Shown: piece by piece, positions 6,444 through 24,648 of the stretch
How positions within the stretch are numbered: position 1 is the first letter of the stretch
Layout: every line of letters starts with the position of its first letter
Origin: a virus
Virus record (IMG/VR): IMGVR_UViG_3300027824_000087
Span: 1-29,162 of that record
Reading direction: 5' to 3' (one strand)
Length of the DNA: 29,162 nt
Translations under genes and position numbers: made by a program
The notes under the pieces: generated by a model
Seen by the model: only the letters and a program-made list of their open reading frames with translations
What the model was told of the DNA's origin: nothing
Database searches by the model: none

Positions 6444-7583
6444 ATGAGGATAGTCTGGCACAGTAACAGCCCGACTACCAACAGTGGCTACGGCAAGATG
6501 ACCGCCCTGTTCGTTCCCCGGATCGCCTCCCTCGGGCATGAGATCGCCGCCATAGCCTCCCCGTATTCGTTCGGCGGTTCCCCGATCGAGTGGAACGGCA
6601 TCCCGATCCTGGGGACTGCCAGGGATATCGCGGGGAACGACGTCATCCTGCGGAACCACGAATATTTCGGCGCAGACCTGACGATCACCCTCGCGGACCC
6701 GTTCGGCCTGCTCAGGGCAGCCCGCGAACTGTCCCAGATCAATTTGGCGTCCTGGTTTCCCGTGGACGCGAGTCCCTGCGGTTACGGCGACGTGACGTTT
6801 CTCCGGGACAGCGGGACGGTCCCCATTGCGATGTCGGTGTTCGGCCGGACTGCCCTGGAAGATGAGGGCGCGGAACCCTTGCTGGTGCCGCATGGCGTTG
6901 ACCTGGACATCTACCACCCCGGTCCCCGCACGTACCGGGACACGCTACCCGGCGTCACAGATGAGACGTTCGTCATCGGCCTGTGCGCGATGAACCGCGA
7001 CCCGAACCGCAAGGGCTTTTTCGAGCAGTTCGCGGCGTTCGCCCGTTTCCACGGCCGGCACCCGGACAGTTTCCTGGCGGTGCACAGTTCCCCGGGGGGT
7101 AAGCCGGGCCTGAACCTGCACGGGATGGCGTGCCAGCTGGGAATCTCAACGGCCGTCGGCTTCCCCGACGGTTATAGCTACGACCTGGGGCTGATCACCG
7201 AGGAGCAGATGGCGGCCTGGTATAACGGGCTGGACATCCTCTCCTTGTGTTCGTACGGCGAAGGTTTCGGCCTGCCCCTGATCGAGGCTCAGGCGTGCGG
7301 CGTCCCGGTCATCACGACGGACGCGAGCGCCATGACGGAGCTATGCGGGGCCGGGTTCCTCGTCTCCGGTACCCCGTTCTGGTCGGACGGGCACACGTCG
7401 ATGTGGACGCGTCCTGACATCTCCGATATCGAGGAGGCGTACGAGGGCGCGTATTGCGCGTGGCAGAACAACGCCCTGCCGAAGCGGCAGGCGGTGGAGT
7501 TCGCGCAGCAGTTCGCGGTGGACCGGGTGTTCGAGGAACACTGGGTGCCTGCTCTCGCCGCGCTGGAGGAGATGTTCGGTTGA
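6444..7583 (+). CDS. GT4-type glycosyltransferase
   Basis: A 379-residue product with the two Rossmann-like halves of a GT-B retaining transferase. It would move a sugar from a nucleotide donor to an acceptor in the cytoplasm. The N-terminal half starts MRIVWHSNSPTTNSGYGKM, with the glycine-rich loop for the acceptor. The C-terminal half has the donor-site Arg/Lys region near residue 190 (PNRKGF) and the EX7E motif EGFGLPLIE (E273, E281), followed by AQACGVPVITT. Length is normal for the family. The gene begins directly after the preceding stop and opens the carbohydrate cassette. Donor and acceptor cannot be told from sequence. Confidence 0.88.
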   Translation: MRIVWHSNSPTTNSGYGKMTALFVPRIASLGHEIAAIASPYSFGGSPIEWNGIPILGTARDIAGNDVILRNHEYFGADLTITLADPFGLLRAARELSQINLASWFPVDASPCGYGDVTFLRDSGTVPIAMSVFGRTALEDEGAEPLLVPHGVDLDIYHPGPRTYRDTLPGVTDETFVIGLCAMNRDPNRKGFFEQFAAFARFHGRHPDSFLAVHSSPGGKPGLNLHGMACQLGISTAVGFPDGYSYDLGLITEEQMAAWYNGLDILSLCSYGEGFGLPLIEAQACGVPVITTDASAMTELCGAGFLVSGTPFWSDGHTSMWTRPDISDIEEAYEGAYCAWQNNALPKRQAVEFAQQFAVDRVFEEHWVPALAALEEMFG

Positions 7584-8362
7584 GGACCGACGATGAGCTC
7601 CGCGCCGCCCTCGGGGGCTACTTCTGGTGGCATTCGATCGAGCTCCGGCCGGGGATCACCACGCCTGGGGTGTCGGGGGATAACCGCAGGTGCCTCCCCC
7701 TGTACGCGCTGCCTGAGGACCTGACGGGCCGGTCGGTGCTGGACATCGGCTGCTGGGACGGGTTCTTCTCGTTCGCCTGCGAAGCCCGGGGCGCGGAACG
7801 GGTTGTCGCGGCGGACGTGTGGGAGACGGCGGGCCGGGACGCGTTCGATTTCGCCCGGGAGGAACTGGGCTCCAAGGTTGAGCCGGCGGAATGCAGCGTC
7901 TACGACCTCCCGGACAGGCTCGGCGGGGAGCGGTTCGACCTGGTGCTGTTCCTCGGGGTCCTGTACCACCTGCGGCATCCTCTTCTCGGGCTGGAGAAAG
8001 TCGCGGCGTGCGCGAAACCGGGCGGTTTGACGGTCATCGAGACGACCATCGACTACGACACGATGACCGTGCGGCGTCCTTTGATGGCGTTCTACCCGGG
8101 CCGGGAACTGAACGACGACCCGACGTCCTGGTGGTCCCCTAACCCGCACGGCCTGGCGATGATGCTCGGTGCGGTGGGGTATGCGGAGGTTCATAACGTC
8201 ATCCAGTTGTGGCAGGGTAACCGGGGGATCTACCACGCGGTGAAAGCATCCGACGCGGACGTTCAGCGGATGGAAGCCGCTGACCTGCGGGCCCGGCATC
8301 GTCACCCGGCTGATAAGAGGCGCCGTGCCGCTCGCCCGGACTTACGACCCCGCCCTCGGTGA
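7580..8362 (+). CDS. SAM-dependent methyltransferase, CmoB/DUF1698-like
   Basis: A 260-residue product. The TTG at 7580 overlaps the previous stop (TTGA) and is preceded by GGAGGA (7566-7571). The N-terminus (YFWWHSIEL, TPGVSGDN) and the SAM-binding motif I LDIGCWDGFF (from residue 54) resemble the CmoB/DUF1698 group. The post-motif LFLGVLYHLRHPL is also typical. CmoB itself modifies tRNA, but phage and cell-surface relatives sit in glycan clusters, and the neighbours here favour methylation of a sugar or related small molecule. The last 38 bases overlap the next gene, and the Arg-rich C-terminus lies in that overlap. Confidence 0.8.
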   Translation: MRTDDELRAALGGYFWWHSIELRPGITTPGVSGDNRRCLPLYALPEDLTGRSVLDIGCWDGFFSFACEARGAERVVAADVWETAGRDAFDFAREELGSKVEPAECSVYDLPDRLGGERFDLVLFLGVLYHLRHPLLGLEKVAACAKPGGLTVIETTIDYDTMTVRRPLMAFYPGRELNDDPTSWWSPNPHGLAMMLGAVGYAEVHNVIQLWQGNRGIYHAVKASDADVQRMEAADLRARHRHPADKRRRAARPDLRPRPR

Positions 8363-9686
8363 AGTGGTTTCGACTGCGCGGGACGGGTTCCTGGACCGGC
8401 TGTCAAGGGACAGTGACATCAAGGAGTATCTCCCGTTCCTGTTCGAGACAGCCGCGTCCTACCCGAACGTCCGGGTCCTGGAACTGGGGACCCGCCGGGG
8501 GAACTCGACTCTCGCGTTCCTCGCCGCCGCTGAGGCGGTGAACGGGCATGTGTGGTCCGTGGACATTGACCGGGTGACGGACGCCCCGGACGGGATGATG
8601 CCGTGGCGGAAATGCCCCGGGTGGACGTTCATCCAGGGCGATGACCTGCACCCGGCGGTACGGGCGAAACTCCCGGCTGAAGTGGATGTCCTGTTCGTGG
8701 ACACCAGCCACGAGTACGATCACACGCTGGAGGAATGCCGGGCGTACATGCCCCGGCTCGCACCCGGCGGGGTTGCCCTGTTCCACGACACGACGAGCTT
8801 CCCCCCGGTCGCGCAGGCCCTGGATACCTGGTGCGAGGAAACAGGACGCACCTGGGAGAACCGGCCCGGGGAATACGGCCTCGGGGTCATCCAGGGGCAC
8901 ACTGAGGCGGGAGACGGCGCGCATACCGGGGGGCCTGTCGCGGTGTCCGTGCTGATCCCCACTAGGGGCAGGGCGGAGAACCTCGCGGGCTCAGTGGAGA
9001 GCCTGCGGCGCCTCGCCCGGGATGTTTCCGCTGTCGAGATCCTCGTCGCCGCCGACCCGGACGACGAGGACACGATCACCGTGGCCCGGGACCTGTGTGT
9101 CACCTTGCATGTGGCGCCGTGCCGGTACGGGTATGAGGGGCTGCACCACTACTACAACTACCTTGCCAGCCAGGCGGCTGGTGAGTGGCTGATGCTGTGG
9201 AACGATGACTGCCGGATGCTCACCCGCCACTGGGATGACGTCATCCGGGACGCACCGCCGGGGATCCTGCACCTGGACACCATGAATTACATCCCGCAGC
9301 ACAACTCGTTCCCCGTCGTCCCGGCGGCGTGGGCGCGGCTGCTGGGGTACATCAGCCCCACGTTCGGGGTCGACCTGTGGTGGCACGCCCTCGGCCAGAT
9401 GACGGGACTGACGCAGCCGGTCCCGGTGAGGGTCCGGCATGCCCGCATCAACGATGACATGATCGCTGCTGAGCGGGACGCCCGGGACATCCGGGGGGAA
9501 CTGGACTCGTTCAACTCCCCTGAAGCCCAGCTGCGGCGGTGGAACGACGCGCAGAAACTCCAGGAACTGCTGGGGAGGCCTCCGCTGGAGCCGGGGGGGA
9601 CGGATGCGGTGGTGTTCCGGCTGCAGCCGGCGAGAGGGATAGAGAACATGTGGCAGGCTGAGGACACCCCGGAGGCGTGTGAGTGA
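8325..9686 (+). CDS. Fusion of a class I methyltransferase and a GT2-like glycosyltransferase
   Basis: A 453-residue product from a GTG. Residues about 1-195 form a class I methyltransferase of the Methyltransf_24 type: VLELGTRRGNS at about 50-60, then VDVLFVDTSHEYDHT and GGVALFHDT. Residues about 205-453 look like a GT-A glycosyltransferase: VSVLIPTRGRAENL, a run of acidic residues (AADPDDED), and a WNDDC motif near 292 in place of the usual DxD. Both enzymes are recognisable alone, and the fusion would join methylation and transfer of a sugar in one chain. The overlap with the upstream gene and the four-base overlap with the downstream gene suggest tight coupling. Substrates unknown. Confidence 0.8.
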   Translation: MPLARTYDPALGEVVSTARDGFLDRLSRDSDIKEYLPFLFETAASYPNVRVLELGTRRGNSTLAFLAAAEAVNGHVWSVDIDRVTDAPDGMMPWRKCPGWTFIQGDDLHPAVRAKLPAEVDVLFVDTSHEYDHTLEECRAYMPRLAPGGVALFHDTTSFPPVAQALDTWCEETGRTWENRPGEYGLGVIQGHTEAGDGAHTGGPVAVSVLIPTRGRAENLAGSVESLRRLARDVSAVEILVAADPDDEDTITVARDLCVTLHVAPCRYGYEGLHHYYNYLASQAAGEWLMLWNDDCRMLTRHWDDVIRDAPPGILHLDTMNYIPQHNSFPVVPAAWARLLGYISPTFGVDLWWHALGQMTGLTQPVPVRVRHARINDDMIAAERDARDIRGELDSFNSPEAQLRRWNDAQKLQELLGRPPLEPGGTDAVVFRLQPARGIENMWQAEDTPEACE

Positions 9687-10642
9687 GGTACCTGGTTACG
9701 GGCGGGGCGGGTTTCATCGGGACCGCGCTGGTTAAACGGCTGTGCGCTGAGGGGCATGAGGTCCGCGTCCTGGACGACATGTCCCGGGGTAAAGCGGAGC
9801 GTCTGGCCGGGTTGCCGTGCCAGGTGTGGCACGGGGATGTGCGTGATGAGGCGACCGTCAGAAACGCCATGCACGGCTGCGACTCGGTGATTCACCTGGC
9901 GTACCTCCAGGGCACGCAAGTGTTCTACGAGAACCCGCTGCAGGTCCTCGACGTGGCCGTGAAGGGCATATCGAACATCCTGGAAGCCTGCCGGGCAACT
10001 GGCACCGGGGACCTGCTGCTGGTGTCCTCATCCGAGGCGTACCAGGTCGCCGCTGAGGTGCCGACCCCGGAGACGGTGCCGCTGTCCGTCCCTGACCCGC
10101 TGAATCCCCGCTACAGCTACGGGGCCGGGAAAGTCATCAGCGAGGTCATGGGTAACGCCTGGCAGCGTGAAGGCATCCTCGACCGGCTGATCATAGCCCG
10201 CCCGCACAACATCTACGGGAACGCAGGCGGCTATGAGCATGTCATCCCGCAGATGGCCGTCAGGATGAACCAGCTCGCCGCCGGGCATGCGGGGGACGGC
10301 CCGGTGTCGTTCCCGATCCAGGGGACCGGCCAGGAGACGCGGGCTTTCTGCCACATCTCGGACTGCGTAGATGCCCTGGTGCTGCTGATGGAGAAGGCCG
10401 GGCCGCTCGGCATCTACCATGTCGGCACTCCCGAGGAAGTGACGATCGAGCAGCTGGCGCTCCTCATCGGGAAGCATTACGGCTATGAGGTGAAGGTCGC
10501 GCCGGGGAAGTTGCCGAAGGGGAGCCCGCCGCGCCGCTGCCCGGACATCAGCAAGATGCGCGCCCTCGGCTACGAGCCGAAAGTTTCGCTGGCGGAGGGT
10601 CTCGGCCCGGTGCTGGACTGGTACCGCGAGCATCCCGGATGA
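9683..10642 (+). CDS. NAD-dependent sugar epimerase/dehydratase
   Basis: A 319-residue product from a GTG overlapping the previous stop. It is a short-chain dehydrogenase of the extended type that acts on nucleotide sugars. The NAD-binding loop GGAGFIG is at residues 7-13. The catalytic Ser lies in SSSEAY (about 115-120), and the YxxxK pair is Y146 and K150 in YGAGK. Substrate-side motifs RPHNIYG and the late GTGQETRAFCHISD are as in UDP-glucose epimerases and NDP-sugar dehydratases. Length is typical. Epimerase or 4,6-dehydratase cannot be decided. Its place beside a C-methyltransferase and a cupin suggests building of a modified sugar. Confidence 0.88.
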   Translation: MRYLVTGGAGFIGTALVKRLCAEGHEVRVLDDMSRGKAERLAGLPCQVWHGDVRDEATVRNAMHGCDSVIHLAYLQGTQVFYENPLQVLDVAVKGISNILEACRATGTGDLLLVSSSEAYQVAAEVPTPETVPLSVPDPLNPRYSYGAGKVISEVMGNAWQREGILDRLIIARPHNIYGNAGGYEHVIPQMAVRMNQLAAGHAGDGPVSFPIQGTGQETRAFCHISDCVDALVLLMEKAGPLGIYHVGTPEEVTIEQLALLIGKHYGYEVKVAPGKLPKGSPPRRCPDISKMRALGYEPKVSLAEGLGPVLDWYREHPG

Positions 10643-11772: not shown

Positions 11773-12118
11773 CCGGCATGAGGACGATCGGGGTGTCATT
11801 CAGGATCTCCTCGGCCCCGTCGACGCCGTGACAGAAATCCGCACGCGCGCCGGCGCGATCCGCGGGAACCACGTCCACGCCCGGACTGACCAGTGGGTGT
11901 ACGTCGTCTCCGGGTCGATGCTGTTCGTCAGCGTGCAGGACGACGGGCGGCACGAGGAGACACGCGGGCCTGGTGACCTGATCCTCGAAGCGGCCGGCGT
12001 GACGCACGCCTGGAAAGCGGAAACGGACTGCACGGTCCTCGTCTTCACCAGGGGGCCGCGTTCCGGCGAGGCGTACGAGTCGGACACCCGGCGGCTAGAG
12101 GTGCCGCTCCTGACGTGA
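11765..12118 (+). CDS. Cupin, sugar-isomerase-like
   Basis: A 117-residue single-domain cupin. The metal-binding motif is seen in GNHVHARTDQWVYVVSG (H36, H38), with a following GPGDLILEAAGVTHAW that supplies the second-motif Pro-Gly and His. Sugar cupins of this size (FdtA/WxcM-like) isomerise or epimerise dTDP-keto-sugars, which would fit the adjacent epimerase and C-methyltransferase. A simple sugar-binding role is also possible. It overlaps the C-methyltransferase stop by eight bases, and the next tiny frame overlaps its own stop by four bases. Confidence 0.75.
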   Translation: MPDRHEDDRGVIQDLLGPVDAVTEIRTRAGAIRGNHVHARTDQWVYVVSGSMLFVSVQDDGRHEETRGPGDLILEAAGVTHAWKAETDCTVLVFTRGPRSGEAYESDTRRLEVPLLT

Positions 12119-12288: not shown

Positions 12289-12406
12289 CCCCAGGCACCG
12301 TGAGGCGTACCTGCGGGCCTGGGTGACGGGCGAACTGCCCGGGAATGCGGAGGGACGAGCACCTGATGACCGGCGACCTCCTGATAATCGTCCCCAGTCG
12401 CGGTAG
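12236..12406 (+). CDS. Tiny ORF, 56 residues
   Basis: A TTG at 12236 begins a frame whose first 36 residues (MNPRLAGLLENGEFDWDNPR through WVTGELPG) look like a compact, mostly helical domain with Trp and acidic residues. The last 20 residues overlap the start of the next gene and are Pro/Arg-rich, as expected of a shadow frame. The start has no strong ribosome-binding site. The protein-like character of the first part makes it more plausible than chance, but uncertain. Confidence 0.35.
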   Translation: MNPRLAGLLENGEFDWDNPRHREAYLRAWVTGELPGNAEGRAPDDRRPPDNRPQSR

Positions 12407-13073
12407 GCCCCAGAATGTGGCCAGGTTGCTTGACTCTGTTCATGAGACCAGCCGCCTGAAGACGCACCTGCATGTAGCCGTCGATGACGATGACGAGAAG
12501 CAGCCGCAGTACCGGGCGGTCATGGACCATGCGGGCGCTGAAGGGGACGTGCTCGAGGTGGGGCCGCGCAAGGGCTTGTGCGCCTGGACGAATGAGGTGG
12601 CGCTCAAGCGTGCCGCCGATTACCCGTTCCTGGCGTCCTTCGGGGATGACATGGTGCCCCGGACTCCCGGCTGGGATAAGGCCCTGTGCCGGGGGATCGA
12701 GCGGATGGGCGGCACGGGCATCGTGTACCCGTGGGATGGCACTAGGGAGGACATTCCCGAGGCGTGCGTCCTGAGCTCGGACATTGTGGCCGCGCTCGGC
12801 TGGATGTGCGAGCCGTCCCTGTCCCACTGGTACCCGGATAACGTCTGGGCCGACCTCGGGCGGGGTGCGGGATGCTTGCGGCACTTGCGGGCCATCGCCG
12901 TCGACCATCTCAACGTCGCCGCAGGCCAGGCCAAGCCGGATGCTACCGCCCGGGACAACGGACGGTCGCTCGACGCCGACCGGGACGCGTATTACGACTG
13001 GCGGCGCAACCGGATGGCCGGTGACATCGAGACGATCGTGAAACTACGCGCGCGGGCATTGCAGCCCGCCTGA
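12366..13073 (+). CDS. GT2-like glycosyltransferase (GT-A fold)
   Basis: A 235-residue product. The ATG at 12366 is taken, with GGAGGG at 12349-12354 before it; an ATG at 12345 in frame is the alternative. The N-terminus LLIIVPSRGRPQNVARLLDS is the nucleotide-binding start of a GT-A transferase, and an acidic stretch (VDDDDE) follows. ASFGDDMVPRTPGWD near residue 95 is a likely metal-binding D-D motif. It is shorter than a full GT2 enzyme and closest in style to the second half of the fusion at 8325. It closes the carbohydrate cassette before the surface-protein block. Confidence 0.75.
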   Translation: MTGDLLIIVPSRGRPQNVARLLDSVHETSRLKTHLHVAVDDDDEKQPQYRAVMDHAGAEGDVLEVGPRKGLCAWTNEVALKRAADYPFLASFGDDMVPRTPGWDKALCRGIERMGGTGIVYPWDGTREDIPEACVLSSDIVAALGWMCEPSLSHWYPDNVWADLGRGAGCLRHLRAIAVDHLNVAAGQAKPDATARDNGRSLDADRDAYYDWRRNRMAGDIETIVKLRARALQPA

Positions 13074-13147: not shown

Positions 13148-13681
13148 ATGGCTCTGGCCAGGACTTACAACGTGGACGCGAACTCCACCACCGGCATCAC
13201 CATCGGGTCCACCACCCCGGGTTCCGAATACCCGATCCTCTGGGGTCAGACCACTTCGGAATTCAACATAAGCGCCATCCGGGTGGGAACCTACTCGGGT
13301 TCGTCGGCGTCGTACCCGAACAACGGGACGATCACGTGGCGGCTCCGCCGCATCGGCCAGGCCGCCACGTTCTCGGCGGGCCTGCAGGGCGGCACCGGCA
13401 CGGCGGTCACCATCGGCCAGTCGACCACCGCCGCCGTGTCCACCTGGTATTACTCGACGTGGACGAACGCGACCGGCACGTTCTCCGTCATGACGACCTC
13501 CCCGCTGTGGGAGCAGACGATCCCGTGCACCGCCGGCGCGAACTGGGGTGAGTGGTTCACCCCTGGTTTCGAATTGAACGTCGGACCTGGGCAGGCGACG
13601 CTGGCGGTCACGTACGAGTACGGCGCCTCCGGCACGTCCTCCGCGGTGAACCTGATGGCGGGCCTGGTCATCTCCGAGTAA
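13148..13681 (+). CDS. Probable structural or decoration protein
   Basis: A 177-residue product rich in Thr, Ser and Gly with alternating hydrophobic residues, as in an all-beta protein. There is no signal peptide. It starts MALARTYNVDANSTTGITIG, has an ITWRLRRIGQAATF segment, and ends WFTPGFELNVGPGQATLAVTYEYG. It has a good ribosome-binding site. As the first gene of the beta-rich block it is likely a virion surface or tail component; no family is recognised. The single Cys (IPCTAG) is not paired. Confidence 0.55.
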   Translation: MALARTYNVDANSTTGITIGSTTPGSEYPILWGQTTSEFNISAIRVGTYSGSSASYPNNGTITWRLRRIGQAATFSAGLQGGTGTAVTIGQSTTAAVSTWYYSTWTNATGTFSVMTTSPLWEQTIPCTAGANWGEWFTPGFELNVGPGQATLAVTYEYGASGTSSAVNLMAGLVISE

Positions 13682-13691
13682 CCCCGCTATC

Positions 13692-13728
13692 CCCCGTGCC
13701 GCTGGTCCCGTTTGCCGGCGGCGCGGGG
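13692..13728 (+). other. Strong intergenic hairpin
   Basis: CCCCGTGCCGC (13692-13702) pairs with GCGGCGCGGGG (13718-13728) over 11 base pairs with one G-T wobble and a 15-base loop. No T run follows, so it is not a classical terminator, though actinobacterial hairpins without T runs are known to stop transcription. It lies ten bases after one stop codon and before a G-rich ribosome-binding region for the GTG at 13751. It could end, process or stabilise the message of the first structural gene. Confidence 0.45.
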
Positions 13729-13750
13729 ATTCCGCAAGGGGGGGTGGCCG

Positions 13751-14497
13751 GTGCCTATCTCCTACAACACGGGTGTCGTCAACACTGCTGACGCCTCGTC
13801 GAATGTCACCCTGGCGCTCCCCGCGGGGATCCTCGTCGGCGACGTGATGGTCATGTCGCTGACGTGCTTCAACGAGAACGCCACCCCCCCGACGATCACG
13901 TTCTCCGGGGCGGGCGGTTCCTGGACGCTGGTTCCGGTCACCGTGGGCAGCAACCCGGAGATATCTTCCGGCGGCGGGAACTACTCCTACGGGTACGCCT
14001 ACTACCGGGTCGCGACTGCCGGGGACCAGGGCGCCACCCTCACCATCACCGGGTCCGGGTCGGGGTTCTTCGCGGGCACCACCTGGTGGGCGGCGGCAGT
14101 CGCGTCGTACACCACGGTGAACACCACCACCCCTATTGACGTCGCGGGCGGTGCCACGGCATTTACCATCGGCGCGCTGAATTTCTCGGTCACCTGCCCG
14201 AGCCTGGCGACGAACTGCACCGCCGATATGGGGGTTTACCTGGGCAGCGGCGCCCCCGGGATAGGCGGTGCTTACTACGTGCCGGACCTGACAACCCCCA
14301 GGAGCGTCGTCAACTCCGACGTGGGCATCGGCGTGGCCATCAGCGACTCAAACGGTTTCGCGGGCTTTTCCGTCGGTGGCGGCGCGTTCAGCACCAACAA
14401 TCAGGGCATTGCGTGGCTGACCGGGTTCACTGTCGGCCTGGCACCCGCTGACGGCGGCGGGAACGGCATCCGGATTACCGGCTACAGGGCGAACTAG
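13751..14497 (+). CDS. Stand-alone beta-sandwich adhesin-type module
   Basis: A 248-residue product; the GTG start follows a G-rich run. It consists of a single beta-rich module: SYNTGVVNTADASSNVTLAL, then IPAG-like LPAGILVGDVMVM, SWTLVPVTVGSNPEIS, YAYYRVATAGDQGATLTITG and TTWWAAAVASYTTVN. The same module occurs twice within the large protein at 16647 (about residues 789-1014 and 1155-1388), with the order of motifs kept. Such modules are frequent in actinobacterial surface and phage tail proteins. It probably binds carbohydrate or another module of a fibre. No catalytic motif is seen. Confidence 0.6.
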   Translation: MPISYNTGVVNTADASSNVTLALPAGILVGDVMVMSLTCFNENATPPTITFSGAGGSWTLVPVTVGSNPEISSGGGNYSYGYAYYRVATAGDQGATLTITGSGSGFFAGTTWWAAAVASYTTVNTTTPIDVAGGATAFTIGALNFSVTCPSLATNCTADMGVYLGSGAPGIGGAYYVPDLTTPRSVVNSDVGIGVAISDSNGFAGFSVGGGAFSTNNQGIAWLTGFTVGLAPADGGGNGIRITGYRAN

Positions 14498-14503
14498 GCG
14501 AAA

Positions 14504-15856
14504 GTGTCTTCTTTCTTCACGAAAATCCTGGGGTCCGGCACAAGCCAGTACCCGGCTGATGCGAACAATAACCCGTGGATGTTCCGGGGGGATTTCTGCT
14601 GGGGGCTGGTCACCAACTCCGGTCAGGGCGGATCCGGGGGCGGAACCTACCAGCAGGACATGACGAACTACCTGTCCACCCGGTGGGGGCAGGGGTACAA
14701 CCAGGCGTACTGCACGCTGGTGAACTGCACCGCCCTCGGCGGCCCCAATGACAACGGGGCGACGTTCGACGGGGTGGTCCCGTTCACCAGCGGTGTTGTG
14801 GGGAACCTGAACAACACGTACTGGAACCGGGTGGACTACCTGGTCAGCGCGGCGCAGTCGCAGGGCATGACGATGATGCTGAACGTCGCCCCGACGGAGG
14901 CGTTCAACGCGGGATGCGTGTTCAACGGCGCGACGACGGGGCAGTGCACGAACTACGGGGCCGCACTGGCATCCCGTTACGGGTCGGCGTCGAACATCTG
15001 GTGGAACTTCGGGGACGACTACTTCTCCACCTATGACACTCAGTACACGGCGATTCTGAATGCGCTGCGGTCCGGCGGGGACACTCACCCTGTCAGTATC
15101 GAGAATTTCGTCGAGTCCGACAGCCGGTATTACGCCTTCAACGGGTCCAGTAACGCGTGGGGGCTGGCGAACGCGACTGTCAACCTAGTGTACACGTATA
15201 ACACGCAGTACACGAATGTGGAGTATGCGTTCACTGAGCCGTCCCCGATCTGCGTGGCGCTGCTGGACGGCTGGTGGGATAACGGGACGGATTTCGACCG
15301 GAACCAGTTCTGGTGGAGCGTCTCCTCAGGGTCCCGGGGGCGTTACTACGGGAACGCGGGGAGTATCTCCTACACGCAGGCGGGATTCATCTCCGACCTG
15401 GCCACGGACACGAACGGGATCAACCAGGGCACCTATTTCGGGATCTTCCAGGGCCTGGGGAACTGGCACAAACTGGTCCCCGACACCAGCAGTCACCTGG
15501 TCACCGCCGGGCGGGGCACGCACCTCGGCCCGATCTCAGACGTCGCCGCCCCTTATACCGGGGGTAATACGTACGTCTCCGCGAGCCTGGCCACGGACGG
15601 GACCCTCGCGGTGATCTACAACCCGGCCGCGAACTCCCAGACGATCACCGTCAACGGGTCGCTGATGAACCCCGGGTACACCGCATCCTGGGTGGACCCG
15701 GCGACGGGGGCGAAGGCAAACGCGGGGATCTCCTCGACGTACACGAACTCGACCCTGAATTCGGTGGGGGAGCATGACTGGCTGCTGGTCCTGCAAGCCC
15801 CCGCGATCCCGTCGGGTCCAGCCACCCAGGTCGTGTCGAACATGAGGCTGATGTAG
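14504..15856 (+). CDS. Apiosidase-like glycoside hydrolase (DUF4038 type)
   Basis: A 450-residue product with no signal peptide. Residues about 15-330 fit the DUF4038/apiosidase-like TIM barrel: DANNNPWMFRGDFCWGL near the start, YLSTRWGQGYNQAYCTLVN, then NIWWNFGDDYF at about 164-174 as an acidic candidate active-site strand. ALLDGWWDNG followed by DRNQFWWSVSSGSRGRYYGN matches the barrel end of the family. Residues about 345-440 form a beta domain like the putative collagen-binding domain usually joined to it (LAVIYNPAANSQTITVNG, WVDPATGAK). In a phage it would be a tail-borne depolymerase cutting a cell-surface or plant-type polysaccharide. Enzyme activity is inferred. Confidence 0.75.
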   Translation: MSSFFTKILGSGTSQYPADANNNPWMFRGDFCWGLVTNSGQGGSGGGTYQQDMTNYLSTRWGQGYNQAYCTLVNCTALGGPNDNGATFDGVVPFTSGVVGNLNNTYWNRVDYLVSAAQSQGMTMMLNVAPTEAFNAGCVFNGATTGQCTNYGAALASRYGSASNIWWNFGDDYFSTYDTQYTAILNALRSGGDTHPVSIENFVESDSRYYAFNGSSNAWGLANATVNLVYTYNTQYTNVEYAFTEPSPICVALLDGWWDNGTDFDRNQFWWSVSSGSRGRYYGNAGSISYTQAGFISDLATDTNGINQGTYFGIFQGLGNWHKLVPDTSSHLVTAGRGTHLGPISDVAAPYTGGNTYVSASLATDGTLAVIYNPAANSQTITVNGSLMNPGYTASWVDPATGAKANAGISSTYTNSTLNSVGEHDWLLVLQAPAIPSGPATQVVSNMRLM

Positions 15857-15878: not shown

Positions 15879-16646
15879 GTGACCTCCTACACCGTCACCG
15901 CGACCGCGACGAACAACACGTTCACCGGGGGGCTCCTCAAGGTCTACGTGCTGGATAACGCGACCCTTGCGGGGACTCCCGCGACCGCGAACTCCGTGAC
16001 CGCATACAACTGCTCGATCACCACCACCCAGACGGGCTCGTATGTTTTCGGTACCGCGAACAACGAGACCGCGAGCACCGCGTTCACTGCGTCCGGCGGC
16101 ACCACCATCACCGATGACCAGTCCGTCAACGCGGGCGGCGCGGAAGCCTGCGCTTTTCACACGACCAGCGCCACGGGAACCCCTGGCGCGACCACAGTCG
16201 GCAGTTCTACCACATTCGCGGGCAACTACGGGGTTGTCGCACTGGAGGTGCTCAACTCCGGTGGCAGCCTTACTATCGACGCGAGTTCCCCCGCGGTTGT
16301 CTTCTCCACCACCCTGACCTCGTTTACCACTGCGAGTTTCACTCCCGGCGCGAGCAGTAACATCCTGGTCGCGGTGTTCGATGCCTGCGGGAACGGCAGT
16401 GCCAATGTCTGTGTCGGGACGGTTTCCAGCGTCCCCGCGCTGACCTGGACTGAGCGGATCAAGATTAACTCCACGGTGGGCGCGGCGAACTCCTACAACG
16501 GGGTGTGGACGGCGACTCTCCCCCCGGGAAACGCCCCGTTCTACCCCACGAACAGGGCGTTGCGTGCCCGGCTGCATTCTCAGGGGCAGCAGCTGAAAGA
16601 CCCGGGGCTGATTTACGCCAACTCCGTGTACGTCCCGGAACCGTAG
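15879..16646 (+). CDS. Beta-rich surface protein ending in one Pro/Arg repeat
   Basis: A 255-residue product from a GTG. Residues 1-215 are Thr/Ser/Gly-rich beta strands (SYTVTATATNNTFTGGLLKV, GVVALEVLNSGGSLTID, NILVAVFDACGN) and resemble the N-terminal module of the next gene. The last 40 residues contain NAPFYPTNRALRARLHSQ, a copy of the repeat that fills the large neighbouring protein. The stop is directly followed by the ATG of that protein. It may be a split-off or precursor module of the same fibre, or a partner protein using the same repeat to assemble. No enzyme motif is seen. Confidence 0.6.
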   Translation: MTSYTVTATATNNTFTGGLLKVYVLDNATLAGTPATANSVTAYNCSITTTQTGSYVFGTANNETASTAFTASGGTTITDDQSVNAGGAEACAFHTTSATGTPGATTVGSSTTFAGNYGVVALEVLNSGGSLTIDASSPAVVFSTTLTSFTTASFTPGASSNILVAVFDACGNGSANVCVGTVSSVPALTWTERIKINSTVGAANSYNGVWTATLPPGNAPFYPTNRALRARLHSQGQQLKDPGLIYANSVYVPEP

Positions 16647-19600
16647 ATGGCCACCGTCACCCACGGCGCTGCCACTTTCAACACCACCGCCGGGAACAAG
16701 ACCGCCACCGCCACGCCTGCCGTCGGCGACCTGATTGTCGTCGTCGCCCCTGCTACCGGGGTGGCGACAACCGTAGTCGCGGACAATAACGCGGACGGCC
16801 TTGGCACTTACACCAAGATCGGGTCGAGTTTCACCGGGTTCTCCACCGCTGGTGACCTCAGTATCTGGGTGCGTAACGCCTTCGTCGGGTCCGCGACCAG
16901 CACGGTGTTCACCGTCACCCAGACCAGCTCGACCGGCGGCGGCCTGGATGTGTACCGCGTCAGCGGGATGTCGCGGACGGGCGCTGGCGCTGTCCGCAGT
17001 TCCGGCGGCCAGTCCACCGGAACCGCCAGCACCGCCCCGGCTCCGGTCCTGAGTCTCACTCCGCTATCCGCCAACCCGATCATCACCGCCGTCGCCAGCG
17101 GCACCAACCCTCCGGGACTGACCGCCCCCAGCAGTTTCACCGCGACGGTAACCAACCTTGGCTATGCCACCCCGACAACCGGGATGGACACGACATACGC
17201 CACCTCGGGGATTACGACTGCCACCATCACCTGGGGCAGTACCTCAGCGACCGCGTTCGCGTCCATTGCCATCGAGCTGGACACCTCGATTCCCGGAGCC
17301 GCGCAGCAGGCGGTGCAGCCGCACCAGGCGAGGATCCCGCCTCGGCCCCGCCTGGCGGGCGTCTACATGGGCGTCGGGCTGCAAGATCAGTCCTACGGCA
17401 CCGGCCAGATCCAGTGGAACGCCGGCGGTCCGGTTCACAACCCCACCACCCCGAGCACCCCCCGTCCGAACGTCGTCCAGTCCGCCGGGTATTACTACAC
17501 CGGGCGGATCGGCGCGAACTACGGCACGCCTGGCCCGACGCAGGGTCCCACGATCCCGCAGCAGGGATTCCCCGTCCGGGCGAGACTCCCCAGGACCGGA
17601 CCCGCCGCCGGGGCGGTCGCCGGGAAGACAGCGCTTTACGGGCTGAACATCACCGGGACCCCTACCGGTGCTATCAGCGGCCCCGCCGGCGGGACCGGAT
17701 CCGGGCAGGGTACGGGGTGCTTCGGCGCCCCGGTTCACAACCCCCCGCCTGCTGTCACCAGCGTGCCCGTGGCGCAGCAGCTGGTCCGGGCGCGGATCCC
17801 GCAGACCCTCAAAGGCAGGATCGCCGCCCATTTCGGCGCACCCGTCCGCAACCCCGGCACGGGCCCGGTTTTCGTCGCCAAGCCGTTCCCGTGCCGGGCG
17901 CGCATCCCGCAGAGCCAGAACATCGCCGGGGGAGTCTTCGGCAGCACCGCCCCCGGCGCGGACGTTTCCTTCGGCACCGGCCGGATCATGTGGAGCCCCG
18001 GCGCCCCCGTCAACAACCCTGTTCCCCCGGTCATCCCCAGGCAGCGTCTCCCCGTCAGGGCTGTCCTCCCCCCGCCGCACCCCCGCGCCGGCCGCATCGG
18101 GAACAGTTTCGGCGGGCCGGTCGAGAACCCGACTCACGGGCCACCCGTCTACCCGCTCCACGGGCCGGCCCAGGCGCGATTCCCCCAGCTTCACCCGCGA
18201 GCTGGCAGGGTCGAGTCCAGCCCCGGCGCTCCCGTCAGCAACCCCACGACCGGTCCCGTTGTTTACGCGTTGCAGGGACCGGTCCGGGCGAGGATTCCGC
18301 AGCTTCACCCCCGTGCGGGCAGAAGCGCGTCGAGTCCCGGAGCCCCGGTCCGCAACCCCACCCAGGGGCCGGTGTTCCGCCCCCCCGCAGTGGCATTGCG
18401 GGCACGGCAGCCGCTTGCCCCCAGGGGTACGTGCCGGGCGATCTCCTCGTACACGATCACGTTCCCGACGTCTGGCGCGGTGTTCTACCCGGCGGATTCC
18501 CCGATCCGCGCGAGGATCCCCCAGAACGCCCCCAGGGGCCGCGTAAGCGCCAATAAGGGCGCCCCGGTTCATAACCCGACGACCGGGCCTGTCTTCACCC
18601 AGAAGGCTTTCCCCGCGAAGGCGCGCACGACACTGCCGCCACGCGGGCATGTCTACGCCCCGCCGCTGGCCAGGGTCGTCACGCCCCAGCCCGGCTCCCC
18701 GTTCTACCCGGCGACAAGCCCGGTCAGGGCGCGGCTCCCGCAGCAGCCGGTTCTCCGCGGTCGCAGCGCCTCTAATACTGGCGCTCCCGTCAGGAACCCC
18801 ACGACGGGTCCGGTCTTCCGGCAGAAGCCCTCCCCGGTGCAGGCACGGTTCCCCCTGCCGGCACGGGGCAGGGTCGCGTCGAATAAGGGCGCCCCGTTCG
18901 TCCCGGCTACGTCCGGACCCCCCGTTTACCCGCAGGGGCGCATCCGCCCGCAGCCGGGAAACATCGCGGGCCTGACCTACAGCACCACCCTGATCCCCCC
19001 GGCGCAGCCGTCGTCCGCGACGATCAGCTACAACACCGGGGCTACCGCCAGCGCGATCACCGCGACCAGCGTTAACCTGACCATCCCCGCCGGGGTCCTG
19101 GCCGGGGACCTGATGGTCCTCGGGGTCACGGTTTTCACCACCAGTTCCAGCGCCCCCGCGATCAGCATCACCGGGGGACCCTGGACGCTCGTCCCGGTCA
19201 CCACCGGGACGAACCCCGAAGTCCCCGCAGGTGCGGGCGTCTGGTCCTACGACTACGCCTATGTCAGGACCGCGACCGGGATAGACCCCGGTGCCACCAT
19301 CACCCTGTCCGAGACGGGCAGCGGCGCCGGGTCCACCTGGTGGGGTGTCGCGCTCGCCAGCTACACGGGCGCGGGCAGTGTCGATGTCGCGGGCGGGGCG
19401 AACGCTGAAGGCACCAACGCCACCGTCACCTGCCCCAGCGAGACCACCACCCACGCAGGCGACTGGGCGGTGTACGTCGGGGGCGGCGCCCCGGGCAGCG
19501 GAACCTCCTGGACGATCCCCGCGGGGACCACCCTGCGGCAGAGCGTCGTCAACGCCGCGGGCATCGGCGCTGTCATCTCCGACGGCAACAGCGCTCTCGG

Positions 19601-22217
19601 CAGCGGCAGCGGCATCGGCGGGGGCACGTTCGGGTCGTCGGCGACCGGCGCGACCTTGTGGCTGTCCGCGTTCACCCTCGGGGTAGCCCCCCAGGTCACC
19701 TCACCACCAGCGGTCACCCAGGCGTCAGGGTTCTTCACCGGGCGGACCGGGTTCTCCCATGGCGCCCCGGTAAACAACCCCGTCACGGGCCCGCCCGCAC
19801 CCGCACTGCATTCCCCCGTGCGGGCACGGCAGCCGCTCCCCGCGCGGGGCCGCACCGGATCCGGCCCGGGGACCCTTTTCATCCCGACCGTCACCGGCCC
19901 GGTCCTCTACCCGTTCCGGTCCCCGGTGCGAGTCCACCCGATCCCCCCGCCGCGCGGCCGCATCACCTCCAACGCCGGCGGCCCGGTCAGGAACCCCCAG
20001 CAGGGTCCCGCATTCCGGCAGGCCACACAGCCCGCACGATCAAGGATCCCGCAGAACGCCTCACAGGGCGTTTACGCTTCCTTCGCGCCATACCCCCCGA
20101 CCGCGCCGACCGGTGTCATCACCTTCAACACCGGGAACAAGAACAGCGCCGACACGGCGACCAGCGTCACCCTCGGGATCCCCTCCGGGGTCCTCCCGGG
20201 CGACGCGATGCTCCTCGCGGTCACCTGCTTCACCCAGGACTCCTCCGCCCCCGCGCTCAGCATCACAGGCGGCGGCGGCACCTGGAACCTGATCTCGGTC
20301 AGCACCGGGACCAACCCTGAGGTTGCCACCGCCGGCAGCAGCATCTGGTCCTACGACTACGCGTATTACAAGATCGCGAACGGGGCCGACCCGGGGTCCA
20401 CGCTCACCATCTCCGAGACAGGTTCCCCCGCCGGGTCCACCTGGTGGGCGGTCGCGGTCGCCTCCTACACCGGGGCAGCCGCCGCCGGCACCATCGACAT
20501 CGCCGGCGGTGCGAACGCCCAGGGTGGCGCCGCGACATTCGTCGCCTGCCCGGCGGAAACCACCGGGGCCGGCGGCGACTGGGCTGTCTACCTGGGTGGC
20601 GGTTCCCCGGGGACGGGCGCGAGCTTCACGACCCCCGCGGGGACCACTACCCGTGAGGCGATTGTCTCCGACGCGGGTGTCGGCGCTGTCATCACCGACA
20701 GCAACGGCCCCGCCGGGCCGGCGGGAACCACCATCGGCGGGGGGCATTTCAGCTCCACCGCGTCCGGGGCGGTATGGCTGACCGCGTTCACCGTGGGCCT
20801 GTCCCCGACGGTGCAGCCGACCCCCCGGCAGGAGTACTCCGGGTTCTACGCGACCGGGCGGATCGCCTGGAGCCCCGGTGGCGCAATCGAGAACCCCCCG
20901 GTTTCCGGCCCCCCGGTTTACCCGCTGCACTCCCCGGTTCAGGCGAAGGCACTGCCGCTGCGGCGGGCACTGACCCGGGCTATCCGGTTCGTCCCGCTGG
21001 CCAGTAACCCGCAGCCGGGACCGCAGTTCTACCCGGCAGTACAGCCCATCGCGGCGAAACTACCCAAACCGTTCCTCACCGGGCGGATTGTCGGTAAGGC
21101 TCCGGGAACCCCGCCGAAGAACCCTGTGAACGGCCCGGTTTTCCGGCAGGCAACCTCCCCGGTCAAGGCCCGGCAGCCGCTACCCCCAAGGGGCAGGACC
21201 AGTAGCAACAAGGGCGCCCCGGTCAGCAACCCCGCCACCGGGGTGCCATTCAGGCCGGCGAGCCAGCCCGCGCGGATCAGGCCCGCCCTCCCCCCGAAAG
21301 GCCGGATCAGCTCCGGGTTCGGTGCCATACCTGCCCACACGGTCAACGGGCCCGTGTTCCACCCGGCGGACTCCCCGATCCAGGCGAGGATCCCGCAGAA
21401 CGCCCCCAGGGGCCGCGTCAACGGCACCAAGGGCGCCCCCGTCAGCAACCCGACCACGGGACCTGTCTTCCGGCAGGCAAACCAGCGGATCGCGGCGAAG
21501 CTCCCCTTTCCAGTCCTTACCGGGCGCAGCCACACCACCCTCCCATCCCCGGTCCGCAACCCCGGTTCCGGACCTGCGGTTTACCCGCTGCATTCCCCGG
21601 TACGGGTCCACCCGAACCTGCCGCCGAGAGGGCGGGTCACCTCCGGCAAGGGCGGCCCGGTCCTCAACCCCCCCGCCCCCGTTTACCCGCTGGAAAGCCC
21701 CGTCCGGGCGCGGAAGCCGCTGCCGCCACGCGGGCGGGTCACCTCCGGCAAGGGCGCCCCGGTCTTCAACCCGACCGCCCCCATTTACCCGCTGCAACAC
21801 CCGGTCAGGGCGCAGAACCCGCTGCCGCCGAGAGGACACGCGAGCGGCAGCCCGGGGGTCGTGTTCACCGCCCCGGCGGGCCCGAAGATCTACCCCGCCA
21901 AGGGTCCGGTCCAGGCACGCACCCCGCTGCCGCCAAGAGGGCGCACCGAAGGCAACAAGGGCGCCCCGGTACGCAACCCGGCCACCGGCCCGGTATTCAG
22001 GCAGGCAGTCCACCCGGTCCGGGGAATCATCCCGCAGAACGCCCCCCGGGGCAGGACCGGCAGCAACCCCGGCGGGCCTGTCGCGAACATCCCGCAGGCC
22101 ACCCTGCGGTTCCGTTACGGGCTCCCGCACTACCAGTGGTCATACGGCAGCCCCGAATACCAGTGGTCGTACGGGGATCCCGTGTACCGGTGGTCGTACG
22201 GGGACCCGGAGAACTGA
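16647..22217 (+). CDS. Giant Pro/Arg-repeat and beta-sandwich surface protein (tail-fibre candidate)
   Basis: A 1856-residue product, the largest complete gene here. Architecture: a beta module (1-213), repeat zone 1 (214-788, about 13 units), beta module 2 (789-1014), repeat zone 2 (1015-1154, 3 units), beta module 3 (1155-1388), repeat zone 3 (1389-1820, about 11 units), and a C-terminal run of four 9-residue units (1821-1856). The repeat unit is about 35 residues: GPVFxQAxxPVRAR, then PLPPRGR, then xSxKGAPVxNP. The repeats are very rich in Pro, Arg and Gly and nearly free of acidic residues, so they should be extended and strongly positive. There is no signal peptide or catalytic motif. 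A long virion fibre or cell-binding protein is the best guess. The start is the ATG abutting the preceding stop. Confidence 0.8.
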   Translation: MATVTHGAATFNTTAGNKTATATPAVGDLIVVVAPATGVATTVVADNNADGLGTYTKIGSSFTGFSTAGDLSIWVRNAFVGSATSTVFTVTQTSSTGGGLDVYRVSGMSRTGAGAVRSSGGQSTGTASTAPAPVLSLTPLSANPIITAVASGTNPPGLTAPSSFTATVTNLGYATPTTGMDTTYATSGITTATITWGSTSATAFASIAIELDTSIPGAAQQAVQPHQARIPPRPRLAGVYMGVGLQDQSYGTGQIQWNAGGPVHNPTTPSTPRPNVVQSAGYYYTGRIGANYGTPGPTQGPTIPQQGFPVRARLPRTGPAAGAVAGKTALYGLNITGTPTGAISGPAGGTGSGQGTGCFGAPVHNPPPAVTSVPVAQQLVRARIPQTLKGRIAAHFGAPVRNPGTGPVFVAKPFPCRARIPQSQNIAGGVFGSTAPGADVSFGTGRIMWSPGAPVNNPVPPVIPRQRLPVRAVLPPPHPRAGRIGNSFGGPVENPTHGPPVYPLHGPAQARFPQLHPRAGRVESSPGAPVSNPTTGPVVYALQGPVRARIPQLHPRAGRSASSPGAPVRNPTQGPVFRPPAVALRARQPLAPRGTCRAISSYTITFPTSGAVFYPADSPIRARIPQNAPRGRVSANKGAPVHNPTTGPVFTQKAFPAKARTTLPPRGHVYAPPLARVVTPQPGSPFYPATSPVRARLPQQPVLRGRSASNTGAPVRNPTTGPVFRQKPSPVQARFPLPARGRVASNKGAPFVPATSGPPVYPQGRIRPQPGNIAGLTYSTTLIPPAQPSSATISYNTGATASAITATSVNLTIPAGVLAGDLMVLGVTVFTTSSSAPAISITGGPWTLVPVTTGTNPEVPAGAGVWSYDYAYVRTATGIDPGATITLSETGSGAGSTWWGVALASYTGAGSVDVAGGANAEGTNATVTCPSETTTHAGDWAVYVGGGAPGSGTSWTIPAGTTLRQSVVNAAGIGAVISDGNSALGSGSGIGGGTFGSSATGATLWLSAFTLGVAPQVTSPPAVTQASGFFTGRTGFSHGAPVNNPVTGPPAPALHSPVRARQPLPARGRTGSGPGTLFIPTVTGPVLYPFRSPVRVHPIPPPRGRITSNAGGPVRNPQQGPAFRQATQPARSRIPQNASQGVYASFAPYPPTAPTGVITFNTGNKNSADTATSVTLGIPSGVLPGDAMLLAVTCFTQDSSAPALSITGGGGTWNLISVSTGTNPEVATAGSSIWSYDYAYYKIANGADPGSTLTISETGSPAGSTWWAVAVASYTGAAAAGTIDIAGGANAQGGAATFVACPAETTGAGGDWAVYLGGGSPGTGASFTTPAGTTTREAIVSDAGVGAVITDSNGPAGPAGTTIGGGHFSSTASGAVWLTAFTVGLSPTVQPTPRQEYSGFYATGRIAWSPGGAIENPPVSGPPVYPLHSPVQAKALPLRRALTRAIRFVPLASNPQPGPQFYPAVQPIAAKLPKPFLTGRIVGKAPGTPPKNPVNGPVFRQATSPVKARQPLPPRGRTSSNKGAPVSNPATGVPFRPASQPARIRPALPPKGRISSGFGAIPAHTVNGPVFHPADSPIQARIPQNAPRGRVNGTKGAPVSNPTTGPVFRQANQRIAAKLPFPVLTGRSHTTLPSPVRNPGSGPAVYPLHSPVRVHPNLPPRGRVTSGKGGPVLNPPAPVYPLESPVRARKPLPPRGRVTSGKGAPVFNPTAPIYPLQHPVRAQNPLPPRGHASGSPGVVFTAPAGPKIYPAKGPVQARTPLPPRGRTEGNKGAPVRNPATGPVFRQAVHPVRGIIPQNAPRGRTGSNPGGPVANIPQATLRFRYGLPHYQWSYGSPEYQWSYGDPVYRWSYGDPEN
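17285..22110 (+). repeat. About 27 copies of a Pro/Arg repeat (about 35 codons each)
   Basis: The in-frame repeat has the core P-[VI]-[RQK]-A-[RK]-x-P, then P-R-G-R, and a linker ending G-A-P-V-x-N-P. Some copies have QNAPRGR (18520s, 21400s, 22040s) and others PLPPRGR or LHPRAGR, so there are subfamilies. Copies of one subfamily are close at DNA level, for example the GGCGCCCCGGT linkers and the units at about 18480 and 21350, which suggests recent duplication or gene conversion. The copies fall in three zones, split by two beta modules. Confidence 0.8.
22107..22214 (+). repeat. Four tandem 9-residue units at the end of the giant protein
   Basis: The last 36 residues of the giant protein are four units: RFRYGLPHY, QWSYGSPEY, QWSYGDPVY, RWSYGDPEN. 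The pattern is x-W-S-Y-G-x-P-x-Y, aromatic and different from the Pro/Arg repeat. Such a tail could be a carbohydrate-binding or anchoring tip. Confidence 0.75.
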
Positions 22218-22226
22218 GGGCGGGGT

Positions 22227-22565
22227 GTGAGCGCTTCCAGCCAGATCGGGCAATCACACCTCGCCCTGAAATACGTGTTCATCCCCGTGTCCGCGACAAG
22301 ACTCGGGGTCCCCTACAACCCGACCGCGGACACCGTGCAGTTCGCGTTCATGCCGACCGCCACGCAGGTCCCGCAGCCAACCGACCTGGTGCTGGGTACC
22401 TGGGATGTCTACGCGAACGACGTCCTGTACCCGTATCACGCGAAATGCCTCGTCGGCCCCGGCGGGATGATCACCCTCGGGATCGGGACGTACATCATCT
22501 ACCTGAAGATCACGGACAGCCCCGAGATCCCCTTCGACATTGTGGGACAGCTCCAGATCAGCTAA
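22227..22565 (+). CDS. Small beta-rich protein, 112 residues
   Basis: The GTG start lies nine bases after the stop of the giant protein. The product is beta-rich: LALKYVFIPVSATRLGVPYN, VQFAFMP, LVLGTWDVYANDVLYPY, GMITLGIGTYIIYLKITD, ending VGQLQIS. This pattern resembles small Ig-like phage structural proteins. The only Cys is in AKCLVG. It is co-transcribed with the fibre gene and may be a tail or fibre accessory. The family is not recognised. Confidence 0.55.
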   Translation: MSASSQIGQSHLALKYVFIPVSATRLGVPYNPTADTVQFAFMPTATQVPQPTDLVLGTWDVYANDVLYPYHAKCLVGPGGMITLGIGTYIIYLKITDSPEIPFDIVGQLQIS

Positions 22566-23490: not shown

Positions 23491-24648
23491 ATGCCAGTCT
23501 CGGCGCGCACGCCCCTCCCCTCACGGGGGCGTATCACCGAAAGCAGGAGCACCTACTCCACTGGTCCCGGCGCGAACATCCACCCTGCCACGATCGGCGG
23601 GGCGTTCACCCCGATGGTCGCCTACTTCCCCTCCCTGGTGGTGGAAACCCAGAACGGCGGCCGCATCAGCCAAGCCGGGTACGTCGGGTCCGGTGCCACG
23701 GTCGCCGCTGACGGATGGTACGTCTACAACGGGTCCACAACGGGAATCTCCGGGACATGGGCGCAGCTACCCTGGTCGGAAGACCAGAAACTGGACATCT
23801 GGTCCGGGGGATTCCGGAAGTTCTCCCTCGGGACGTGTGAACCACTCCCAGGGTACGAGAACCAGTTCGCCAACGACCCGCCGCCTGTGCCTTCCGCCCC
23901 GTCTCCCGGGGTAAGTTTCGTCGCCTACTACAACAACGACTTCGAAGCGGGACTCGTCGGACCATCCCAGTCCGCACTGCGCAACAGCAGCAACTGGGTG
24001 TCCACTCAGTACCAGCCCGCGCCTGGCATCCCGGTGGGCCTTGAAGGGGCAGTGAAATGCTACCCCGCGAATCAGGTGACATTCCCGTACCCGAATGGAC
24101 CCGCGATCTCCGCGTTCCAGAGCATCCAGGCGTACGCGAACGTGGTGAACCCCGCGACCCAGGTGAACCCCCAGGTTATCTACGAGGCAGCCTGGGACTG
24201 CTACGGGTTCGCCCACTGGGACAGGGGCACCCCGGCAGCCCCGCTGATCTCCCTGGAAGTCATGTTCTGGACGTACAACCACAATCAGTCCCCGAACATC
24301 GGCCCGCTGGTAGAAACGAGCGTGGACCTGCAAGACGGCAGAGGTCCCGTCTGGAACCTGTACATGACCGCGGACACCGCCGCGACCGGCGGAGTCAACG
24401 ACAAGTACTCCTACTTCATCTGGTACCTGCAGGATCAGCACCAGGTCAGCTCCGGGTACGTGGGATGGGTGAACATCCTTTACGGGATCCGGTACGTCTC
24501 CCAGTATTACGTGAAGACCACCGGGGGAGCCCCAGCTAACCCGCTGAACGTCCCCATGTACCAGATCACCCGCGGCTGGGAAGTCTGCTCCACGCAGTAC
24601 AGCCCCCTGGATTTCAGAATGAACGACTACAAGATCCTGATGACCTGA
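23491..24648 (+). CDS. GH12-like glycoside hydrolase with an N-terminal Pro/Arg repeat
   Basis: A 385-residue product with a strong ribosome-binding site (AAGGAGGGG, 23481-23489). It starts with MPVSARTPLPSRGRIT, one copy of the repeat of the giant protein. Residues about 145-385 look like a GH12 (endoglucanase/xyloglucanase) beta-jelly-roll. LEVMFWTY contains E256, the position of the family nucleophile in E-x-M-x-W. GWEVCST contains E364, the position of the acid/base Glu near the end. VWNLYM and the closing MNDYKILM also fit. In a phage it would be a tail depolymerase for a beta-glucan. The call is from motifs and order only, so the activity needs testing. The next gene overlaps its stop by one base. 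Confidence 0.65.
   Translation: MPVSARTPLPSRGRITESRSTYSTGPGANIHPATIGGAFTPMVAYFPSLVVETQNGGRISQAGYVGSGATVAADGWYVYNGSTTGISGTWAQLPWSEDQKLDIWSGGFRKFSLGTCEPLPGYENQFANDPPPVPSAPSPGVSFVAYYNNDFEAGLVGPSQSALRNSSNWVSTQYQPAPGIPVGLEGAVKCYPANQVTFPYPNGPAISAFQSIQAYANVVNPATQVNPQVIYEAAWDCYGFAHWDRGTPAAPLISLEVMFWTYNHNQSPNIGPLVETSVDLQDGRGPVWNLYMTADTAATGGVNDKYSYFIWYLQDQHQVSSGYVGWVNILYGIRYVSQYYVKTTGGAPANPLNVPMYQITRGWEVCSTQYSPLDFRMNDYKILMT

Follow-up and report, generated by a model that had tools for sequence, protein, structure and literature searches.

A Pro/Arg-repeat family in giant adhesin-like proteins of uncultivated phages

Analysis of an IMG/VR virus record of 29,162 bases (hereafter the window; 67% G+C) identified a giant protein in which a Pro/Arg repeat of ~36 residues recurs in ~26 units; the repeat is a new family inside the known class of phage surface adhesins. 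The open reading frame (ORF) is complete (16647–22217, 1,856 aa), beginning with an ATG at 16647 and closing with a stop codon that ends at 22217, and its 5' junction reads TAGATG, such that the stop of the preceding gene is followed directly by the start codon. The protein is ordered as an N-terminal beta domain, repeat zone 1, a beta module, a short zone 2, a further beta module, zone 3 and a C-terminal Trp tail (Table 1). We consider it probable that the giant protein is a virion-borne modular adhesin or depolymerase, most likely associated with the tail or with another surface appendage, that has basic stalks and is anchored at its C-terminus. The repeat and its conservation, the gene block around it and the positions of that block, the domain fusions, and the linkage between tail and partner gene were observed directly, whereas virion location, binding, stalk shape, direction of anchoring and glycosylation target are what we infer.

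Table 1. Coordinates of the giant protein's domains and of neighbouring genes in the window
Feature	Position	Strand	Evidence and remarks
RfaG-type glycosyltransferase	6444..7583	+	phrog_2170 E 1.4e-28; relatives 57-84% in all six compared phages
SAM methyltransferase and GT2 fusion	8325..9686	+	Methyltransf_24 1e-16, Glycos_transf_2 3.4e-9; methyltransferase part block-conserved
Second glycosyltransferase	12366..13073	+	phrog_14945 E 3.7e-35; 56-82% in all six compared phages
177-aa block-marker protein, beta-rich by sequence	13148..13681	+	27 related loci, 36-92%
Free-standing beta module	13712..14497	+	49% identity to internal modules; start more likely 13751
Apiosidase-like glycoside hydrolase	14504..15856	+	PF13204 E 2.1e-18, above cut-off
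Probable beta-domain protein	15879..16646	+	C-terminus is half repeat FYPTNRALRARL; translation
N-terminal beta domain	16647..17291	+	Residues ~1-215; from translation
Pro/Arg repeat zone 1	17307..18944	+	Residues ~221-766, first units degenerate; relatives-only profile
Internal beta module 1	19020..19691	+	Residues 792-1015; AlphaFold model, BFVD matches
Pro/Arg repeat zone 2	19737..20081	+	Residues ~1031-1145; relatives-only profile
Internal beta module 2	20115..20807	+	Residues 1157-1387; sequence homology to module 1
Pro/Arg repeat zone 3	20856..22097	+	Residues ~1404-1817; relatives-only profile; last unit conserved across phages (alignment)
C-terminal Trp tail	22098..22214	+	9-residue repeats FRYGLPHYQWSYGSPEYQWSYGDPVYRWSYGDPEN; 27-bp tandem repeat
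Small conserved partner protein, 112 aa	22227..22565	+	~34 loci, including phages without repeat protein
Structural-type protein	23491..24648	+	N-terminus is half repeat MPVSARTPLPSRGRI; profile match E 6e-4

Repeat zones and beta modules

Units of the repeat are 34–38 residues long (consensus GPVFRQATQPVRARLPQLPPRGRVASNPGAPVRNP), and a seed profile detected ~28 stretches. A profile compiled from 154 units, all of them from phages other than the window, scored 667.8 bits on the window protein (26 stretches above 10 bits and 31 above 0), compared with at most 6.1 bits in 200 full shuffles and 4.8 bits in 200 block shuffles. Because this relatives-only profile scored far above the shuffles, the repeat signal is neither circular nor compositional. 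Lag analysis gave peaks above the shuffle maximum at 38 and 36 for residues 461–765, and at 34 and 37 for residues 1401–1820. The 750 repeat residues comprise 107 K+R versus 6 D+E, along with 21% Pro, while charge outside the repeats is close to balanced (34 K+R, 39 D+E), limiting the charge contrast to the repeats.

A DNA-level search found a single 102-bp tandem among the Pro/Arg units, the others having mostly diverged, and the array is therefore old. Unit subtypes hold their position and order between phages: the best match of unit 25 is the last unit of five other phages, and units 4–6 match the corresponding early units of two relatives (L041 and L019). The best match of a full-length unit fell within its own protein in 44 of 181 cases (13 expected by chance), and hence most units are ancestral and not recent copies. 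When five repeats and the tail were modelled with AlphaFold, no secondary structure or confident fold was obtained (pLDDT 51), a result that demonstrates neither disorder nor the lack of an oligomeric fold.

Nothing meaningful was returned by searches of Pfam (six giant proteins), NCBIfam (three) or PHROGs (the window protein); sequence searches of the PDB gave chance matches only for the repeat, the beta module and the 112-aa partner protein, and no precedent was found in the literature on Pro-rich phage fibre repeats. Two candidate identities were rejected: a collagen-like fibre, given the 34–38-residue period and the absence of Gly-X-Y triplet runs and of a Pfam match, and an AT-hook (RGRP core), given that Pro follows RGR in 1/184 cases.

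The two internal beta modules share homology, both with one another and with a free-standing gene upstream (~49% identity). An AlphaFold model of the module, built from five input sequences, was all-beta with moderate confidence (pLDDT 71, pTM 0.77). Foldseek comparison of this model with viral models (BFVD) gave 67 matches at E ≤ 0.001, many of which were minor tail proteins from phages of Gordonia and Mycobacterium (E 2e-7 to 1e-5, 220–245 columns, TMq about 0.56–0.65). Judging from the model, the beta module would share the beta-sandwich fold of actinophage minor tail proteins over most of the domain. The 296-aa match from phage Tweety agrees in size with gp21 (891 nt), which lies in the tail region just after the minor tail genes. 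Structure comparison with the PDB reached a VIA Z of 5.3 at best (part of the GH86 structure 5ta1) and 4.7 for the lectin BC2L-C, values that are below trust level and name no family. The N-terminal beta-type domains of relatives belong to differing families, while the last repeat and the Trp tail are conserved. Inspection of the translated giant protein revealed no apparent signal peptide or membrane segment.

Much of the preliminary description of this DNA is thereby borne out. It had placed a giant Pro/Arg-repeat protein at 16647–22217, and both the exact ORF and the relatives-only profile agree; the three beta modules it reported correspond to one N-terminal (residues ~1–215) and two homologous internal modules (792–1015 and 1157–1387). 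The basic, Pro-rich character it gave the repeat matches the measured composition, and its claim that no described family covers the repeat held against Pfam, NCBIfam, PHROGs and PDB sequences. A search with a profile of the 35-residue repeat, which it had proposed together with the structure prediction of the repeats given above (pLDDT 51, no fold), found relatives in uncultivated phages and no match in cultured phages. Its fibre-like reading of the giant protein is plausible, and better supported after this analysis as an adhesin-like modular architecture in a phage structural neighbourhood.

Phage context and the surrounding gene block

The repeat-protein family occurs in more than 10 distinct uncultivated phages with its reading frame conserved (complete-looking members of 659–1,664 aa). 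Cultured phages and plasmids, searched with the whole protein and with the repeat, returned nothing, and scans of 84,980 bacterial and archaeal genomes for the repeat signature and block markers gave pattern matches but no relatives. Cultured phages include only distant relatives of the terminase and portal, such as those in the Arthrobacter phages Sonali and Mufasa8; with the portal as query, 34 related uncultivated contigs were recovered, the longest of them 135 kb. Based on these phage relatives and the G+C content of 67%, an actinobacterial host is likely. Tyrosine-integrase-like genes recognised by eye in two relatives (G002, 101086–102387; G003, near 88.8 kb) suggest that some relatives are temperate, and a tRNA scan of these putative temperate relatives found no integration site. 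A 135-kb relative that carries the repeat protein contains an array of 35 tRNA genes (L066; G001, 55001–75000).

Gene calls in seven phages delineate a conserved set consisting of an RfaG-type glycosyltransferase (GT), a SAM methyltransferase, a second GT, the 177-aa beta protein, variable modules, the repeat protein and the 112-aa protein. The giant gene lies among packaging and head genes and shares their direction, and no above-chance promoter or terminator candidate sets it apart. The block lies between TerL and portal in G000, G001, G005, G006 and G008. It follows a gene resembling that of the major capsid protein (MCP) and precedes the tape measure gene in G003, the portal of which is only 27% identical, and in G002 it is found at 87–96 kb, after tape-measure-like and Gly-rich tail genes, with portal and terminase near 40–48 kb; the MCP-like and G002 tape-measure-like labels reflect position, size and sequence by eye, a profile match being available for the G003 tape measure only. 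Given these three arrangements, the block therefore changes position as a whole inside the structural region. Identities within the block (57–84% for the RfaG-type GT, 56–82% for the second GT, and 50–92% for the 177-aa beta protein, which matched no family) can exceed those of the surrounding head genes, for example in G003. The position before the portal does not in itself imply a head protein, because Arthrobacter AK phages keep minor tail genes ahead of the terminase (PMC11468179).

Inside the block, the window also encodes an epimerase, a C-methyltransferase and a cupin (9683–12118) that resemble a branched deoxysugar pathway; in G002 this trio is located elsewhere (56–60 kb, 65–75% identical). 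Outside the block, a fusion of portal, MuF-like region and NUDIX hydrolase domain occupies 25878–29162 and is interrupted by the contig end (the fusion is about 1,500 aa in G002 and G005). A small protein at 1308–1889, ~80% conserved in the same two relatives, combines an N-terminus of the secretion type with an HNH-like motif (weak phrog_589).

The apiosidase-like hydrolase is encoded two genes upstream of the giant ORF and matches the apiosidase structure 8t9w in the PDB (E 2.4e-4). An Asp (GDD/GND) and a Glu (TE/LE) that are invariant in three apiosidase-like phage sequences are plausible candidates for its catalytic residues. In one relative (L092), an apiosidase domain (6e-27) occurs inside the repeat protein itself, following the N-terminal beta domain and preceding the repeats; G002 has a GH16 (5e-11) at the place equivalent to the hydrolase, and a relative in G003 contains large inserted domains recognised by no profile. 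Half repeats were found at the ends of neighbouring genes, namely at the C-terminus of the probable beta-domain protein and at the N-terminus of the structural-type protein (Table 1), and a G005 gene (19901–21211) likewise starts with one. Repeat units therefore seem to be joints where modules fuse or split.

The Trp tail and its partner gene

The giant protein terminates in three 9-residue repeats (YQWSYGSPE, YQWSYGDPV and YRWSYGDPE), encoded by a 27-bp tandem repeat at 22119–22208. Of 29 phages, 21 had a motif of the [FY]xxGxPxxxW type within the 240 bases that precede the partner gene, versus 42 of 800 control stretches (5%), a control rate being given in place of a p-value as the pattern was picked after viewing the sequences. 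The protein bearing the motif is the repeat protein in some cases, an unrelated protein in others and, in still others, the small protein, at its own N-terminus. G005 is an exception in that its partner gene is 3.3 kb downstream of the repeat gene and not adjacent to it. Tail and partner together recall a fibre whose C-terminus has a protein for assembly or docking. The partner protein had no match in PHROGs, NCBIfam or the PDB, and homology to known chaperones was not found. On a 130-kb contig (L029), the Trp-type tail just upstream of the partner gene follows a basic repeat of a different kind (HPGFTALRRHGNYRSALLGI...), which is possibly an analogous stalk of another family.

One speculative extension of these observations is a plug-and-socket display, in which interchangeable surface proteins of uncultivated soil phages (Pro/Arg-stalk adhesins or unrelated proteins) would each finish in a Trp tail, a single small conserved partner would recognise that tail, and the stalk repeat would serve as both charged spacer and module-swap joint. 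That such a display system is previously undescribed is a similarly tentative suggestion. The preliminary description was right that a different 9-residue repeat is present at the C-terminus, and missed its apparent role as a swappable tail linked to the gene at 22227–22565. It likewise passed over the conserved block of GT, beta-protein, glycoside-hydrolase and partner genes around the giant gene, and the half repeats at the ends of genes 15879–16646 and 23491–24648.

Proposed function and relation to known systems

As an adhesin, the giant protein would use its beta modules, together with the neighbouring or fused glycoside hydrolase, to bind and trim host surface polysaccharide. The Pro/Arg repeats would form extended positive stalks that space the modules and make weak electrostatic contact with an anionic cell-surface polymer, and the Trp tail and adjacent small protein may couple the adhesin to the particle or assist its folding. 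The two GTs and the methyltransferase could decorate the giant protein or another virion protein, either being a putative target. Because the block is accompanied by glycoside hydrolases, one of them fused into the repeat protein in a relative, the case for polysaccharide as receptor is as good as that for teichoic acid. The adhesin reading draws on the encoding of the protein among virion structural genes in three arrangements, and on its modular build, including the fused apiosidase domain of L092 and beta modules with a predicted minor-tail-like fold. It also draws on the restriction of the charge contrast to the repeats, the linkage of Trp tail and partner gene, the conserved reading frame and the lack of an apparent N-terminal signal sequence. 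A classical tail fibre, with its conserved N-terminal anchor and variable C-terminus, is argued against by the variable N-terminus and conserved C-terminus found here; anchoring, if any, is likelier to be C-terminal.

Several of these observations also bear on other explanations. Most block copies lie between TerL and portal, the G003 block comes right after the MCP-like gene, and the Pontimonas phage phiPsal1 has a GT, methyltransferase and GT2 set directly after its MCP, as might be expected if the giant protein were a fibre or decoration of the head surface, with beta modules and stalks radiating from the capsid and making weak contact with glycans in the manner of the Ig-like domains on some phage heads. 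In mycobacteriophage Douge, glycan-binding Ig-like domains are borne by the capsid and tail-tube proteins (PMC13033339). However, the G002 block is behind tail genes, the fold matches of the beta module are minor tail proteins, and minor tail genes precede the terminase in AK phages (PMC11468179), and we regard a head location as unlikely. It is conceivable, if doubtful, that the repeats are passive, disordered linkers that take no part in binding, and that function resides wholly in the beta modules and hydrolase: AlphaFold found no order in them, and genes end inside repeat units as interchangeable joints would predict, but position-specific unit subtypes across phages and a fixed charge pattern exceed the needs of a plain linker.

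The adjoining sugar-biosynthesis and GT genes, and the integrase-like genes seen by eye in two relatives, could instead point to a non-virion product, that is, a glycosylated cell-surface or secreted protein of lysogens or infected cells involved in host coat change, superinfection exclusion or biofilm. With neither a signal peptide nor a membrane segment evident in the giant protein, and with its gene co-directional among packaging and head genes and isolated by no above-chance promoter or terminator, this seems quite improbable. Least credible of all is a basic internal protein that binds or compacts DNA and is packaged with the genome: the repeats are suitably charged (107 K+R versus 6 D+E) and nearly every unit has an RGR-like core that might act as an AT-hook, yet the Pro that an AT-hook has after RGR occurs in only 1/184 cases, and the beta modules and hydrolase fusion are unfitting for an internal protein.

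If the giant protein is indeed an adhesin, a conserved, strongly basic Pro/Arg stalk combined with hydrolases, GTs and a shared Trp tail would be a novel means of constructing and varying the parts with which phages recognise hosts. Such phages recur in metagenome assemblies, but no cultured member was found, and the 177-aa beta protein, the partner gene and the Trp tail could serve as markers when phage genomes without annotation are searched for adhesins.

The shafts of known phage fibres are, for the most part, trimeric beta-helices, triple beta-spirals, coiled coils or collagen. The block resembles virion-associated depolymerases in its apiosidase-like or GH16 enzymes, one of which is fused to the repeat protein, but here the enzyme would sit on a Pro/Arg stalk and not on a beta-helical trimer, and its activity is predicted. 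Tail fibre genes of the Tfa type are paired with a chaperone gene, and in the window, similarly, downstream of a large modular fibre-like gene lies a small conserved one tied to its C-terminal end; unlike in Tfa-type pairs, the small protein has no PHROGs match, and its folding role is putative. Minor tail proteins of actinobacteriophages infecting Mycobacterium (Tweety, Hawkeye, Shauna1) and Gordonia (GodonK, Beyoncage) are similar in predicted beta-module fold and structural-gene location, but no sequence match links them to the giant protein, and the Pro/Arg repeat, Trp-tail partner and giant size were not found there.

As in Douge (PMC13033339), beta-sandwich modules would be displayed on the particle as glycan binders; those of Douge sit on the MCP, TTP, BppU and CFP, whereas the ones described here are arrayed along a separate protein with basic repeats. 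Glycosylation of mycobacteriophage capsid and tail-tube proteins has been reported in work cited in PMC12619734. Related GT genes also occur right after the major capsid gene in two cultured phages, phiPsal1 (L097) and the Microcystis phage Mae-JY09 (L096). The repeat protein and beta block were not found in either phage, but the RfaG-type GT in their head-region GT sets is 33–37% identical, and phiPsal1 additionally encodes a methyltransferase and a GT2 after the MCP, making the two phages tractable systems for virion glycosylation.
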